From Albifimbria verrucaria (taxonomy: Eukaryota; Ascomycota; Sordariomycetes; Hypocreales; Stachybotryaceae), in assembly GCA_020081605.1 (NCBI GenBank), contig JAHREC010000016.1, positions 186,001 through 250,000 of the forward strand: a stretch of 64,000 bases of DNA, written 5' to 3'. The notes under the pieces were generated by a model. It saw nothing but the letters and a program-made list of their open reading frames with translations, was not told the DNA's origin and did not search any database. Numbering within the stretch: the stretch's first letter is position 1; every line of letters starts with the position of its first letter. Below, in pieces: positions 36,511 through 46,717 of this stretch. Both the position numbers and the translations under genes were made by a program.

Positions 36511-38750
36511 AAAGGGTTGGATAATGGAAGAAGATTGTGGAAGATGGCCGGGAAAGTGATGCACGACGCTGGATAGAACCATATTGGATAAAGAGAACCT
36601 AGACTAACTAGGACCGGCATTCTAGAGTCAAGCTTTTAGATGTGGACGTTTTGGTACGAAGCCTCTAGTCGTGATAATAACGATTGAGGACTGATATAAA
36701 TGGTTTAGGGTACGTCTTTAATTTAGAAGACTGTCTAATGATAAATAACTAAACCTGGTTTTAACTTAGGATGTAGATTATATAATTATTCTTAATTGTA
36801 TAATAATAATTGAATTATATCTATATATAAGAACAATTTATTAGTTTTATTTTATAAATAATTGGGAGAATATTTTATGTATGTATTTGATCATAAATAG
36901 CTGGCAGTTTAGTTACAATAGCTCCATCCTCAATTATTTTATGGGCTGAGATTAATCCGTTCCGGCTGTGTCAGGAGAATATTTGCTTGGATTGTACTGC
37001 TGTAATTACCACAAATTTAAGAGGCATTTAAAGCTGTTCCAATCGGCTGGGCCCGACCCGGTTTGTCTTAGATTTTTATGAGGTCTCACCATCCCGCCTA
37101 TCGTACGTTTCCTTTCTAAGCATAGTACTTTTGACTTAGATGAGCAATGAACACTTTTCATTAATTGAGGCTGATGCTTCGAGACAAGGAGTTTATGGAG
37201 ATAAAGATTGACGAGTAGTGTGCATTTCGTGTAGCCTTATAAATAAAATCGAATAAGAATCGAAATTATATTTAAGAGAGAGTCTACAACTATTATCTAT
37301 GTTTAATTGTAAATACTAATATTAGTGCTGAATGTTTTGCTTTGAGGCCCTGGTTCCTTTTTATTTAAGACAGGTTGAAGTAGGTATGTCTCCCTGGAAT
37401 GGTTTCAGACGAAGCCGGGCTCGGGCCAGATCCCAGACCCCTGGCCCGGGTCGGAAGCTAGTGGCTAGCTCCCGCCGCCATCCCTCACTCGTAGTAGGAC
37501 CGAAGAGCTTTAACCACTCACATTGGAAATGCGGCGCCATGTCTCAGGAGAGAGTCGGATTTTCCATTGCCATCTTCATCAGATTCCAGTCCCCAATATA
37601 GATCCCTTATATGGCTTGCCCTGAAGATCATCGTTACTTCATCCCCATCCCCAGTGGAAAGTTGCATTTTTAGTAATTAGATCATCGCTAGTCCCAACCG
37701 CACCACCCTTTCAACCTGAGATGTGCCTCTGCCGTGTCTTGCATAGATGATGCCATCCTTCGCTCGTGTGTGTAACCAATAGGTCTGATAACCCATCACG
37801 CATACATGCCATACCATTAGTTGCATTCGGTGCGCTGCCGTTGTAAGCAATTACCCAGAAGAGACGGTATCCCTCTCGTGGCATGATGCTGACCCTATAT
37901 TGTTCCTGGCTAACCAGCAAGACTTGTATTCGCGGTAAGCCCCAGTTTGTAGACTTTGTTTACAGATTAGCATCCAAATTTATTGGGAAAACGGGACTCG
38001 AAAAACTTTTAAGGAGACGTCACATCATTATGTATGGCGGCTATTTGATTTGCTATGGCGAAGTGCACCTTACATACATAGCAGGCAAGAAAGTGTTGTG
38101 TTATATCCAATTTGCTGGAGCACTCGCGTCGCATAACTCCTACAAAACCCACACATTAAAGTTGTAAGATTAGTTAATTGTCTGCTCGTGCGCTTGGGAG
38201 TTGACTGGATGAGTCCTTGTTGAGGGTCGAATGTTTTCAGCGTTTGACGGGGCGGGAGACGCGTCTCAGGCGATGCCGGACACCTCGCCGGCATAAGGAG
38301 ATATGTTAATGACTCAGCACAGCTGTTGTTACGAAGCCGCAGAAAGATCAGAGCCTCGGGAAGGGACAGATCTTCCCGCCATCTTAGTCTCTAAATCGCC
38401 ATAACTTGAATTCCTGAACGGAATTGACAAGGCAAAGACCTTTGTCGCAGAAGAAGTTACGACTGAAGGCTGAGACATCGCCGCATCTGTGTAACACAAC
38501 ATAGGACGAACGCATACGAGGGAGGAATCCACATATTCTTGAGGAATGAATTCACCAGTTAGGCATTGGCAGCCCTCCTAAGGATACTAGAAATACGTGA
38601 TGTAGCAGAGATATAAAGGCGAAGAACAACACCACACTGGGATCTACTGACCATTCGTCAAGAGAATAGTTCCCGGGCTACATCGATCACCAACTTACGA
38701 AAACACCCCCAGCCTAGCGGCTGAGTACTTTCCTTTAATTTTCTCCGGCT
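36511..38750. other. 2.2 kb gene-free stretch, AT-rich in its first half
   Basis: From about 36680 to 37330 the sequence is strongly AT-rich with runs of TA. The rest is of ordinary composition but has no recognisable gene. The last few hundred bases should contain the promoter of the secreted repeat protein. Confidence 0.55.
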
Positions 38751-41700
38751 ATGACCAATCATCGAGGTGCCCCTTGGGTGCAGGCTGCCGTCATGGGCTC
38801 CATGTTGGCAGCTCTGGCCCTTGCCAATCCCAACTTTGGCACTATTGAAGTGGTTACAACTAAGTATCACGACTTGAATCAATGCCTGGCCATCTGTACT
38901 GGTGTCCCGGGGAGTGAGAATGGCCACGTCAAATTTGGCTCTTCTGGAGGCTCTCAACATGGAGCTTTGGGAGGAGGATCCGGAGGACACCTAGAAGACC
39001 CTCACCACGGCGCCTTTGGGGTCAGACCTTTTGCTGAGCCTACAAAGGTACCACAGCCAGGACCAGCATCCGACTGCGAATATGTCACACTTGAAGTACC
39101 AACCCATGGTAAAATTGGAGCGACGAAGACAATCGAACCGAATTGCGATGGTTGTTACGGTACTATCTACCATTATGAACCTACAGATAGACCATTTGTT
39201 ACTCTGACGACTAAAGGAAGCGGCCGGTGGCCAACTGTTTCACTAAAAGTACCTGATCACCACTGCGGCGTCTGCGAGGGTACCGTCTACATCTGTCAAC
39301 CAACATCAGCGCCAAAGGGGTCCTGGTTCCAGTGGAAGGCTGGCAAGAAGGGAGACGCCCACGATATCCACCATCATCAGGAAAACGAACATGGGCATGG
39401 TAAACACCATACTGGAGTGTTTGGTACTCCGGAGCCTAAGCATCCCAAGGAGTCTGAAAAAGCTACCGCAACATCCAAAACACACAAACATGGAAAGCCA
39501 GACAAGAAGCTTCCCAAGGAGTCTGGTAACACTTTGGAACATAGTTCCCATTTCATTGAAGTGGCCCGCGTGAAGACGTCAGCTTCTGAGGTTCTAGAGA
39601 GCCGCAAAGATACCCCAACACCCCTAATTCAGATCGCCAGTGCCTCCATTGCTTCAATCGATCACAGCACTACTCGAGAAAATGCTGAGCCAACTGATAC
39701 TCTCCTCTTACCACAGCAATTGGTGAGCTCAGGTACCTCTGTCTTCTTGAGTGGTAGAAGCACCACTTACACTGCACCGGGTGATCAAAATACCATCGCT
39801 CCATCTGGTTCTCAAAGCACTACTCAAGAAAATGCTGAGCCAACTGGTACTCTCCTCTTACTACAGCAATTGGCGAGCTCAGGTACCTCTGTCTCCTTGA
39901 GTGATAGAAGCACTAGTTCCACTGCACCCGGTGATGAGACTACTACTGAAGAGAACGACATCTTCATAGCGCAGCTGGAATTTCGGACTTCTCCCTCAGC
40001 AGGTGATCAAAGTACTACTGAGGACAACACCAATACTGCTCCCACTAGCAGCCAGACCACGGTAAACTCGTCGAGACCCAGCATCTCCACTGTACCAGCT
40101 GATGAAAGCACTGTGTCCACGACCACGACCACGACCTCGACTACATCGCACCGAACTTTTGCTGGTATTAGCAATACTATTACGGAAAGCACTACCAGTG
40201 AGAGGCCAACCCCTACGGCATCTGAGATTGTCGAACTCACATCCTTTGATCTGGGCAAAATTAGAGCACTTCAGGATTACATCGACACCCTGACAATACT
40301 TGTGGAAAACAGTCGAGATGCTGGTAATTGGACTTTCGACTGGAGCACGATTGTGGACTCAACTGAAGCTAGCAGTACCACACCATATGATTGGAGTCAG
40401 TTAGAGATTTCTTTGGACGGGACGGGTACCACATCAGCGCCCAGTGATCTCATGAATTTCTTTAAGCTCCTGCTTATGAAGGTCGGTGATGAGTACACAC
40501 CAGAGGAGCTAATCGGTTTCCTGAAACGTTATATTGCTGGAAGTAGCGACAACATTCCTTCTACGATCCTCGACTTCTTCAATCTTTTCTTCTCGGGACG
40601 TGGTAACTTTGGTATGGGTCCGGTCGAATTCCAAAGCGCAACCTCGGAGCTACTGCACTTCCTGAACCTCTTTGAGACTGACAAAGCTACGATCGAGAAT
40701 GTACCCTCAATTCTATTGAACTTCCTCCAGGATTATATGCCGGATGAAGATACTTCTTCCGATATTATGAACTTCCTCAACCTCTACTTATCTGGAAATC
40801 CGGACGACGAGGACATTCCCGCAGAATTACTAAGATTCTTCAAAGCATACTTCCCGGAAAGGGCAATTATGTCTATGAGCCTTCCGACTTAGTTGACTTC
40901 GCCGAGGTCTACAATTCTGGCCAAGCGACTCCTCAAAACATCCCCGGAGTTGCTAAGCTTCTTCAGAAACTATTCTTCCGACAATGATGACCAGATCGTA
41001 CCCTTGGACTTAAAGAGCAACCTTAATCTCTTCTTAGCCGGCAGGACAACGCCAGATAACACTCCACCGGAACTACTGAACTTCTTCAAGACCTACTTTT
41101 TGGGTTACGATAACAGTGACGCTATACCCGCAGACTGGAACAGTTTCCTAGAACAGTATACAACAGCTGATAATGATGATCTTCCTCTCAACTGGAAGAA
41201 CTTCTTCGATATATACTTCACGGGCGAAGATGCTGAAGAAACCACAAACTTCGACTGGAACAGCTTCTTTGATGTGTTTTTCTCAGATGAGAATAGTGGG
41301 GATCAAAGTACTTCGCCTCTGAACAAGTTCCTCGACTACTGGTTTTCAAGCAAAAATAGTGATAACCCACTACTAAACTGGGATGAATTCAATGACAAAT
41401 ACTACCCCGGTAGTGACGCGGGAAGTGCGCCATCAGACTGGAAGAGCCTGTTCGATTTTGGCTCCGCCACTACGGCAGACCCTCAAGACCTCAAGAGCAC
41501 TGTATCGGGATGGCTACAGGAATATGGTAGTAGTGTGGGCGGCACCAGTGGCCTGAAGGCTAACCTGCTTGATCTTTATAACGTCGAAGACGGCCTTAAT
41601 GTCAGTGGAGAAGTGCTCGACGGAGCTGTCACAGAATTGGAGAAGAATGGACTCACATCTACTGCGGATGTCTCTAATGACCGCCTGGTCGAGATTAAAG

Positions 41701-41975
41701 ACGCGCTTAATAAAGTGGGCATCCATTCGATAGTCGATGGAGGCGGTCTTGAGGGCTTCGAAAATCTGGGGCTTGCCCTTGGTCTGGCTAAAGGTGTGCC
41801 GCTGCTGAGCGAGAAGATAGTTACTGATGCCATGGATGAACCGCAGTGCAAGGGTCTTAATCTCGCTGTAGCATGCCTCGTGGGCCAGATTATTGAAGAA
41901 TCGGGTGTTGATACAGCTGATGTTGTTCAGCACTTGAAAGAAGAGCTTCCAGATATTTTCGGGTCTAGAAAATGA
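38751..41975 (+). CDS. large secreted protein with Cys module, His-rich and Ser/Thr regions and about 16 short acidic-aromatic repeats
   Basis: Start ATG 38751 with a signal peptide (VMGSMLAALALANP). Residues about 105-190 hold two related Cys modules, CDGCYGTIYHYEPT and CGVCEGTVYICQPT. A His-rich stretch (DIHHHQENEHGHGKHH) follows, then Ser/Thr-rich sequence with a 50-residue direct repeat. From about 40437 to 41470 come about sixteen 19-22-residue repeats of pattern P-x-x-L/W-x-x-F-F/L-x-x-Y-F, each followed by Gly and acidic residues (for example PPELLNFFKTYFLG, LNWKNFFDIYFTG). The C-terminus is a helical domain ending DIFGSRK, without a GPI site. A TAG at 40890-40892 lies between two same-frame blocks. 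The roughly 85 bases around it read better in the next frame (YEPSDLVDFAEVYNSG), explained by a lost A near 40858 and a gained C near 40942. No known family recognised. Likely a wall-associated or extracellular protein of about 1075 residues. Confidence 0.75.
39666..39945 (+). repeat. direct repeat, 150-bp period, within the secreted protein gene
   Basis: Two copies of about 130 bases (39666-39795 and 39816-39945) encode ENAEPT-TLLL-QQL-SSGTSV-LS-RST. They differ at scattered positions and their period is a multiple of three, so the frame is kept. Confidence 0.85.
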
Positions 41976-43199: not shown

Positions 43200-45229
43200 A
43201 TGACAGAAGTCCCCGAATTTAGCATCCTTACGCCAAATGCCATGCTAGGCTATGGCTACAATGTTGAACATTTTTGGTATGGCATTCAAAAATATCAGCC
43301 TGCGGCCATCATCGCTGATAGTGGATCGACGGATGGGGGCCATATAAGCTGGGCATGAATAAGATGACGTGCGGGCGAGGCTCCTACGTTCGCGACCTCG
43401 AGCCGATACTTACAGCCTGTTATCACTACAAGATCAAGGTATTGATTGGTTCGGTGGGAGGAGATGGCAGCAACAGCCACGTGCAAGAAATGTTGGGTAT
43501 TGTTTCATCGATCTCGCAAAGGCTAGGCTTCACTTTCAAAATCGCCACCATCAACGCTGGCATGAATCGGGACTTGATTAAATCCAGGATACAAACTCAG
43601 AAGGTCAGTCCTTGTGGACCAGTACCGAAATTACTACCAGAAGTTGTTGATGGAGCTGTGGACGTGGTGGCACAGATGGGTGCTGAGCCGTAAGTAACTC
43701 CCAGTTCTTGTTGAATGGAGCTTGTATTAACAAGAAAATTAGATTTATTGAAGCACTTGAAGGTAACCCTGATATAATTCTGGGTGGCAGATGTTATGAC
43801 CCCGCACCTTTTGCTGCGTTCTGTCTCTCAAGAGGCGTCTCGAGTGGAGTAGCATGGCACATGGGCAAGATTATGGAGTGTGGTGGCATCTGCGCAGTTC
43901 CCAAGGGCCGTTCTATGGTTGCAACTATGCGTCATGATTCTTTTGATCTGACACCCTTGGCACCCGAAGAGAGGTGCACCCTTTGTCTGTTGCGGCTCAC
44001 ACACTATACGAGAAGACGAGGCCAGACCGTCTGCCAGGCCCAGGCGGTATCCTCAGCCTAGACAACGCCCGTTACGACCAGGTGACTGAGAAAACAACAC
44101 GCGTGTCAGGTGCCCAATTCCTGGAGACCCCGTATCAGGTTAAACTTGAAGGTGTCACGTTCTTGGGATATCGGACCATCTTCATTGGCGGAATAAGAGA
44201 TCCAATCCTCATCAACCAAATAGACGACTTCCTCGAGCGAGTACGCAAATACACTCAGAACCTATTTCCCGAGCTCGACAAATCAGACAGCTGTCGTCTC
44301 ATCTACCATATCTATGGCAAAAATGGCGTTATGGGCCCATTGGAGACTCAAAATTCAACCAGCCCTCATGAAATTGCAATTCTGGGCGAGGTTGTCGCCC
44401 CTACGCAGGATCTGGCTTACACGATCGCGAACAATGCACGAGCTTCTATCCTGCATTTCTCATATCCCGGGCAGATTGCGACAACTGGCAACTTTGCTAG
44501 CCCACTGTCGCCACATGAGCAGGAGGCCGGTGCGGTTTTCAGATTCAGCTTGTACCATCTCGTTGATCTTGAAGACGATGAGCCAGTTTCACTCTTTCCC
44601 ATCACATTCAAGCAGGTAACTTCGAACAACAGCCCGGCACCTAAGAGTACTCTGTCTGAGGAGCGGCTGCAAGCCCTGGAGAACGGTGTTCTTACACCTC
44701 TAGGCAGGTCCCATATCCTTATGAATCTAATTAATGCTAACAGTTGTGATCAGATAAAAAGAAGGCCCCGGCCAGGAAGGCAAAGATGGAGGAGCTTGCT
44801 CGTATCATTCGGTCCAAGAACTCAGGTCCATTTGAACTCACATTTGACATTATGTTCGATGATGAAGCAGTTTACAAAAGAGTCAAGGGTGCAAATGTCC
44901 TGACTAACGATGTGATACGATCTTTGTACCATGTGCAAAACGATGATATTCTTACAAATATGTTTTTTGAGCCAGCGCTCGCCTGGAAGTGTACGATCAA
45001 GAGGCCATGGGCGCAAGGCAGTGTTGGGGAAAGAGATACTTTGGGGACACAACAGCACGCACTGCTCCTAGGTATTGAGGTTCCTGAGGCGAATAGTATT
45101 GCAGTTGATGTTGTCAGGTCCAGTAATAACGAGACGAATCATGTTGACGGTGTTAACGGCGCTCTTGCAATCAAAGAAGCAGACACAATCACAAACGGAG
45201 TCCAAGGAGCTCAAGGGTCGACAACTTGA
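43200..45229 (+). CDS. AtuA-like (DUF1446) protein with C-terminal DUF4387 domain
   Basis: Start ATG 43200 (MTEVPEFSILTPNAMLGYG). The AtuA-type domain shows DSGSTDGGPYKLG, CGRGSYVRDLEPIL, INAGMNRDLIKSRI, GGRCYDPAPFAAFCL and WHMGKIMECGG, split by intron 43690-43742 (53 nt). At its end the DUF4387 domain follows: ELARIIRSKNSGPFELTFD, NDVIRSLYHVQNDDIL and MFFEPALAWKCTIKRPW. In bacteria AtuA belongs to acyclic-terpene (citronellol/geraniol) utilisation loci, but its reaction is not firmly known. Frame losses near 43337, 43974 and 44758 sit at G or A runs. The frame closes at TGA 45227-45229 inside a hydrophilic linker. The CoA-transferase frame opens right there without a start codon, so the true gene probably continues to 46717. 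No targeting signal seen. Confidence 0.8.
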
Positions 45230-46717
45230 GACACACAAGTCAACAGCCCTTGAAAGGGGACGATACGGGAAATCTCAGCTTAGGGCTTGACCGCTCCAGC
45301 TTCGTTGCGCGTGACATCGTACACGAGTTGTGGAAAGGGCTTACACTTCCTGATAGTGCCCTAAAGTCTCTTGAACTTCCCGGTGATGACGGAAAGCCGT
45401 CACTCCCTTCGTCTTATAAGATTGGATCCCTGGCTCAAGGCACAATAGCGCTGTCTGGGCTTCTAGCGGCACTCATCCACTCTTTGCGGAATCGAAGTTC
45501 AGTGCCCAGGGTGACGGTGCCTCAAAAGCATGCAGTCATCGAGTTCAAATCCGAAAGGCTTTATGTACTGAATGGCAAGCCTGCCCCGTCACCTTGGGGC
45601 CCGATTGGGGTTTGCATAAGACATCGGATGGCTACGTTCGTATCCACGACTCGTTCTCGAATCACAAGAATGGAGCGCTCGAGCTTTTAGGGTTGCCCCT
45701 GACAGCCAGCCGAAAAGATGTGTCTAAGAAAACACAAAACTGGGCGAGCATTGATTTAGAGGCGGTCGGTTTAGAGCGTCGACTGGCAATCTACGCTCTA
45801 AGATCATACCGTCAATGGGACGTGCTGCCTCAAGCTCAGGCGATTGACGACTTTCCCATTGCCATAACAAGGATTGCCTCAGGACCAGAAGGTTTGTCTC
45901 CTCGACTTTTACCCGGAAACGATAAATGTCTCCGAGGCCTGCGGGTAGTCGAGATGAGTCGTGTCATCGCCGCGCCTCTGGCAGGCAAGACCCTGGCAGC
46001 TCACGGGGCCGATGTCATCTGGATAACATCTCCAGGGCTACCAGATTTGCCCACAATGGACCGCGATTTTGGTCGAGGAAAGCGTACTGTCCAGATCGAC
46101 GTCAATAATGTTGAGGACCGGCAAAAGCTGAGAGAGTTGATCAAGTCATGCGACGTCTTCATCCAAGGTTTCCGTCCAGGTAGTATAGCCGCGAAAGGAT
46201 TTGGGCCTGACGAGGTCGCGTCTCTGAACCCGGGTATCATTTACGGCTCTATGTCCGCATTTGGTCCAAAGGGGCCATGGTCACAGAGGCGTGGCTACGA
46301 CTCCTTATCCAGACATGTTCAGGTATGAATACCTCAGAGGCCGAACACTACGGAGCCGGCGAAACGGCTCGCCCGACGCCATGTCAAGCTCTGGATCACG
46401 CAGGTGGTTACTTGTTGGCGTCAGGTGTCTTGGCGGCTCTATACCGTCGCTCAGTACAGGGAGGCTCATATCGTGTTGATGTCTCACTGGCTGGGGCTAT
46501 GAAGTATCTCCGCAGTATGGGCCAATACCATGGGAACTCGGGTTTTCAAACTGCGGATTACGAGGCACCATCCGACGTGGAGGAGTTTCTGGAGACACGG
46601 CAAACAGGCTTCGGAGAAATAAGAGCAGTCAAACACAGCGTGCAGGTGGAAGGACATGAGCCATCGTGGGACATCATGCCGAAACCATTGGGAAGTGATG
46701 AAGCTCGATGGCTCTAG
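45230..46717 (+). CDS. CaiB/BaiF family III CoA-transferase domain, probably the C-terminal part of the AtuA gene
   Basis: Encodes a fungal-type CaiB/BaiF CoA-transferase. A first half carries ARDIVHELWKGLTLPDSAL, LAQGTIALSGLLAALIHSL, GLHKTSDGYVRIHDSF and LELLGLPLT. A second half carries LRGLRVVEMSRVIAAPLAGK, TLAAHGADVIWITSP, DVFIQGFRPGSIAAKG and GIIYGSMSAFGPKGPW. It then goes through CSGMNTSEAEHYG and GGYLLASGVLAALYRR to the stop at 46715-46717. Family III enzymes move CoA between acids through an aspartyl-CoA thioester. One-base losses near 45612 (G run) and 46302 break the frame. The frame has no ATG upstream of its first conserved block: the first one comes only after about 135 codons. 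Together with the open linker, this indicates translation as one polypeptide with the AtuA-DUF4387 part. A separate gene with an upstream exon is the alternative. Confidence 0.8.

Follow-up and report, generated by a model that had tools for sequence, protein, structure and literature searches.

What kind of protein carries seventeen short acidic units with an aromatic face, and what might such an array do? The question is raised by a gene in the DNA analysed here, a 64,000-nucleotide stretch of Albifimbria verrucaria (contig C13:186001-250000, hereafter the window), which we compared with the rest of its own genome (48.4 Mb in 41 contigs), with public protein and family libraries and with published repeat proteins.

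The gene, its interrupted frame and an intact relative

The gene spans about 1,070 codons, from a start codon at 38751 to a last stop at 41973-41975. It encodes, in order, a likely signal peptide, a paired-Cys module, a Ser/Thr-rich linker, the repeats and a C-terminal region, located as follows.

38751..41975, + strand: whole gene, start to stop codon (same-frame open frames 38739-40892 and 40893-41975; the relative P0003 aligns along both)
38751..38825, + strand: likely signal peptide, residues 1-25 (best 15-residue mean hydropathy 1.86; cleavage site by inspection)
39072..39302, + strand: paired-Cys N-terminal module, CxxCxGT twice (assigned by homology to a GLEYA-domain gene on contig C10)
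39333..40433, + strand: Ser/Thr-rich linker (123 of 367 residues Ser or Thr; P0003 181-547)
39666..39965, + strand: two-copy duplication in the linker, 150-base spacing
40437..40856, + strand: units 1-7, Leu/Ile subtype (starts 40437, 40497, 40554, 40638, 40701, 40752, 40815)
40877..40939, + strand: unit 8, in another frame than its neighbours (the same unit is in frame in P0003)
40890-40892, + strand: stop codon breaking the main frame (from the open-frame list)
40944..41123, + strand: units 9-11, Leu subtype (unit 10 from 40998, unit 11 from 41061)
41124..41471, + strand: units 12-17, Trp subtype in five of six (starts 41124, 41181, 41244, 41307, 41367, 41427)
41544..41972, + strand: C-terminal region with two Cys and no hydrophobic (GPI-type) tail

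The reading frame is interrupted within the repeat block, between about 40850 and 40944. Past the stop codon the original frame is open again to the end of the gene, and a short stretch in another frame at the break can be read as the additional unit 8. A protein search with the first piece of the window protein (7992 scored candidates) found one relative, P0003, a metagenomic 'hypothetical protein' of 1061 residues from a JGI source (contig of 21,840 bases) that is 96% identical to the first piece over 97% of the query; the database combines proteins from public genomes and metagenomes, and where fungi are concerned its yield of one relative is weak evidence that others do not exist. P0003 runs continuously across the site of the frame change and carries the same 17 units, which indicates no change in unit number between these two sequences. 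Since P0003 is unbroken there, the breaks in the window are assembly errors or recent lesions, and an intron spanning the break was ruled out, as it would remove unit 8, which is coding sequence in P0003. Whole-protein measurements were made on P0003, and the window frame was left unrepaired.

The interruption could also be taken as the mark of a decaying pseudogene, with genuine frame breaks and a repeat that survives as a relic. We regard this as very improbable, given that both sides of the break are still open and that the relative is intact. Assembly indels are made plausible by the C10 GLEYA gene of the same assembly, which shifts frame six times over seven pieces, although introns or true decay are possible there too. 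Differences between the window and P0003 are, moreover, fewer inside the repeat block than outside: 3 of 340 residues in the block (omitting 31 residues around the frame break) compared with 15 of 367 in the linker (p 0.008) and 24 of 690 in everything compared outside the block (p 0.012). Adding 28 break residues, translated in the frame of unit 8, brings the block to 5 of 368 (p 0.025 against the linker and 0.048 against the 24 of 690). Judged from this one sequence pair, the repeat block seems more constrained than the linker and not free to drift.

Within the linker, the two copies of the duplication are identical at 101 of the first 110 bases and at 118 of 150 overall, and the duplication is much younger than the main repeat. 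At the other end of the protein, the last 20 residues have a mean hydropathy of -0.57 and the end is charged, so a GPI-type tail is absent by hydropathy, used here in place of a dedicated predictor. Downstream of the gene, at 43687-46714 of the window, lie AtuA-like, DUF4387 and CoA-transferase III pieces that resemble a small catabolic cluster; the frame changes within the AtuA and CoA-transferase pieces fit short introns and indels alike.

The repeat array and its probable helical character

The array comprises 17 degenerate units of about 20 residues at 40437-41471 on the + strand, with a period of 21. Unit starts are 17-21 residues apart, one step of 28 excepted (P0003 positions 549, 569, 588, 616, 637, 654, 675, 696, 717, 737, 758, 779, 798, 819, 840, 860 and 880). 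Self-similarity of the P0003 block is maximal at lag 21, at 0.08 per residue, compared with -0.54 for the best of 300 shuffles over lags 15-24. A core pattern, composed after the units had been seen, matched 14 times in 13 of the 17 units (one of them contributing two matches); 2000 shuffles gave 0.85 matches on average and never more than 5. When each unit was scored by a profile built from the others, with unit 10 left out, 13 of 16 exceeded the 95% level (10.0) of 300 shuffled-block maxima and six beat the highest shuffle (19.0); units 15, 16 and 17 scored below 10. Tandem Repeats Finder reported no DNA-level repeat in the block, which implies that the units are old or strongly diverged.

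The residue at the fifth position divides the array. It is Leu or Ile in units 1-11 and Trp in five of the last six, and all five Trp units fall within the last six of 17 (chance 0.001); three more D/N-W motifs lie just ahead of the block, at P0003 512-535. The first-pass annotation, made from the letters of the window, had described a tandem repeat of about 16 units at 40437..41470, early units with Leu and late ones with Trp, belonging to no named family. The repeat is present, with 17 units and well above shuffles; the split is real by position; and the lack of a named family holds within Pfam, NCBIfam and PDB sequence searches. No family scored above cut-off in Pfam or NCBIfam, no sequence relative was found in the PDB, and curated helical-repeat profiles (HEAT, ARM, TPR and the like) gave no match. 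At E up to 10, with filters that drop most matches above about 0.1, Pfam lists just Exo70_C and RE_TaqI for P0003, and both were rejected. Exo70_C (PF03081; E 0.0068 for P0001 and 0.002 for P0003, at 15.9 and 17.7 bits against a cut-off of 24.1) covers P0003 439-523, which is linker and pre-repeat stretch, and RE_TaqI (PF09573; E 0.39 for P0001 and 2.9 for P0003) is below cut-off. Elsewhere in the own genome, no further copy of the second piece, the late repeat or the C-terminal region was detected; a match on C6 at E 2.84 was at chance level.

The block carries a net charge of -44 in 371 residues, with 63 acidic and 19 basic residues, and F+W+Y make up 16.4% of it. Its helical moment peaks at 100 degrees. 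At that angle the moment of 17 chosen cores was 0.472, compared with 0.294 +/- 0.034 for shuffled sequence, and over the whole block, with no choice of cores, it was 0.338 compared with 0.259 +/- 0.017. AlphaFold models, both built without an alignment, placed seven helices on seven units (mean pLDDT 54) and nine on nine (mean pLDDT 40); with mean pLDDT only at these levels, their support for the helices is weak. Neither model contained trustworthy packing between helices or had a fold match in the PDB, and for models built without an alignment the missing match means little. Each unit probably combines an acidic linker with one short amphipathic helix bearing an L/W-x-x-F-F-x-x-Y-F face, as modelled from these moments and predictions. 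It had been suggested earlier that each unit forms one amphipathic helix plus an acidic turn and that the units build a solenoid: the first part gains support from the moment at 100 degrees and, weakly, from the predicted helix per unit, while structure prediction gave the second a helix per unit at low confidence and no trustworthy packing.

To gauge exposure of the aromatic residues, we applied a 39-residue rule for acid-exposed aromatic/leucine clusters, as given in the available text of PMC10550315; the rule serves here as a measure of exposure and not as a claim of nuclear function. It passed 38 of 1023 P0003 tiles, all of them in the block (635-683 and 779-851), and 0 of 8278 tiles in the 48 other window open frames of at least 140 residues, a weak control because many of these frames are probably non-genes. 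With the cut relaxed to a charge of -5 or below and at least 8 WFYL, 188 P0003 tiles passed, 28 of them outside the block, as did 128 of the 8278 control tiles.

Acidic amphipathic arrays elsewhere in the genome

The N-terminal module leads to a second gene in the same genome, at about C10:575500-579835 on the minus strand (locus L008, C10:571500-581000). In a comparison of just these two sequences the N-termini have 43% identity across 77 residues (E 1e-14), and genome search recovered the similarity at E 4.5e-10, with 8.0e-6 in the reverse direction. On this sequence similarity the module is homologous to that of the C10 gene, and the homology covers the module only; sharing it does not define a protein as a GLEYA adhesin. 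In the C10 gene the piece after the module contains a GLEYA domain (PF10528, E 3.9e-12), and over several hundred residues the tail carries amphipathic repeats that are acidic and poor in aromatic residues; three pieces of it have helical moments of 0.474, 0.550 and 0.548, compared with 0.220-0.252 shuffled, and best lags of 19, 45 and 15. Both proteins thus combine a paired-Cys N-terminal module, a low-complexity middle and acidic amphipathic repeats towards the C-terminus. They differ in that the window protein has no GLEYA domain (no match in P0001, P0002 or P0003, and none of the six scored PF10528 matches in the genome on C13) and in that F+W+Y account for about 1% of the C10 repeats, compared with the 16.4% of the window block.

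A third array occurs at C33:1740400-1746600 (locus L031, C33:1737000-1746900), where gene pieces contain repeats plus a GH17 domain. At this locus 19-residue LPTDLPGVLSSLLGPIPTD-type repeats, nearly identical to one another, run on for a very long stretch ahead of the GH17 domain. The best lag is 19 and the helical moment 0.447, compared with 0.223 shuffled. Like the window protein, this protein of the same genome, probably a wall protein, has acidic amphipathic repeats; it differs in its many near-identical Pro/Leu/Gly-rich units, about 1% aromatic, and an enzyme domain at its C-terminus. Among the three arrays the window block alone is aromatic-rich, and it has the lowest moment over the whole block. 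We rejected homology between the window units and the arrays on C10 and C33, whose scores under the unit profile do not exceed those of their own shuffles; what we claim is therefore likeness in layout and physics, and not descent.

A GH7 search of the own genome returned 34 pieces on C6, C15, C33 and C36, some with stop codons, which suggests that there are several GH7 genes and that the organism degrades plant biomass. One GH7 gene is closest in the PDB to 5w0a and 1eg1, which we take to be Trichoderma enzymes; by this likeness the source is probably a filamentous ascomycete.

Possible function and known systems

The repeat is new within the libraries searched, and the architecture around it is of a known kind. 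We propose, tentatively and at somewhat less than an even chance, that the gene encodes a secreted surface protein of adhesin-like type, in which aromatic helices flanked by acidic residues would offer many weak contact sites. Secretion is probable from the N-terminal hydropathy and from inspection of the sequence. The acidic linkers would keep the aromatic faces soluble and separate, so that the block could act as a chain of many weak hydrophobic contacts; such a chain might attach the protein to another surface or to its own copies, and the N-terminal module and linker would retain it at the wall. The protein has a hydrophobic N-terminus, an N-terminal module shared with another gene, a Ser/Thr-rich linker and acidic amphipathic units, and the GLEYA-bearing relative of its module itself bears acidic amphipathic repeats. 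Of the features of the fungal adhesin-type class, taken loosely, it has the Ser/Thr-rich linker and the tandem repeats, and it lacks the C-terminal GPI signal. Against the proposal, Pfam and NCBIfam searches found no GLEYA or known ligand-binding domain in the protein, there is no GPI-type tail for holding it at the wall, and the exposure rule passes over part of the block only.

A serious rival, unlikely in our view but with a real chance of being correct, is that the units stack as a rigid alpha-solenoid or helical rod, a stalk or spacer in which the aromatic faces are buried. The regular period of 21 with one helix per unit speaks for such stacking, as does the retention of the aromatic face in units that are otherwise degenerate; the one-helix units themselves, the step of 28, the weak final units and models that show neither trustworthy packing nor a PDB fold match (the latter a miss that means little here) speak against it. 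It is improbable that the protein is instead secreted to act in or on another organism, its helices binding a host or neighbour protein in the manner of an effector or activator. Secreted repeat-containing proteins are described from plant-associated fungi in the available text of PMC4617103, and part of the block passes the acidic activation-domain rule of PMC10550315, but the protein is large and its N-terminus is common to an adhesin-type gene. Least of all do we expect a calcium- or cation-binding repeat, which the first-pass annotation had raised. The 63 acidic residues against 19 basic would suit that function, yet a pattern search found no EF-hand-type loop in P0003, block included, and a looser pattern matched once, at 371 in the linker; acidic linkers alone are weak evidence.

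The adhesin-like reading may also be part of something broader, which we offer as a doubtful conjecture. Unrelated surface proteins (the GLEYA adhesin, the GH17 protein and the window protein) could share an undescribed wall design of acidic amphipathic helix arrays with units of about 19-21 residues, many of them started by Pro; in the window protein the faces would have turned aromatic, and the secreted product would be a sticker-and-spacer polymer that serves attachment or self-assembly. That one genome contains three dissimilar arrays which resemble one another in charge and helical pattern hints at a shared physical role.

Among published systems, acidic activation domains of the VP16 and CITED2 type resemble the block in placing aromatic and leucine residues in an acidic context, and two stretches of the block pass their rule; as presented in the available text of PMC10550315, they belong to transcription regulators, whereas the window protein has a likely signal peptide and an N-terminus in common with an adhesin-type gene. 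Fungal adhesion and wall assembly both draw on surface proteins with repeats. In Ustilago maydis, according to the available text of PMC4617103, Rep1 and Hum3 are secreted proteins with 12 and 17 amphipathic imperfect repeats, and the processed Rep1 peptides are surface-active, with a role in attachment to hydrophobic surfaces. The repellent Rep1, whose repeats act at surfaces once cut by Kex2, is the nearest functional parallel in print (PMC4617103, available text). Its units and those of Hum3 are 34-55 and 31-36 residues long, with Kex2 sites between most of them (same source), whereas the window units are of about 20 residues and P0003 has no K/R-R site between units, its sole such site lying at 578, within unit 2. 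Rsp1 of the same fungus equals the window protein in unit length, its eleven imperfect repeats in tandem being 18 or 21 residues long; these are described in that text as hydrophilic, with putative Kex2 motifs between them (PMC4617103). Rep1, Hum3 and Rsp1 are thus built from longer units or divided by Kex2 sites, and an array of short, acidic, aromatic-faced helices, degenerate yet conserved, would represent another building principle.
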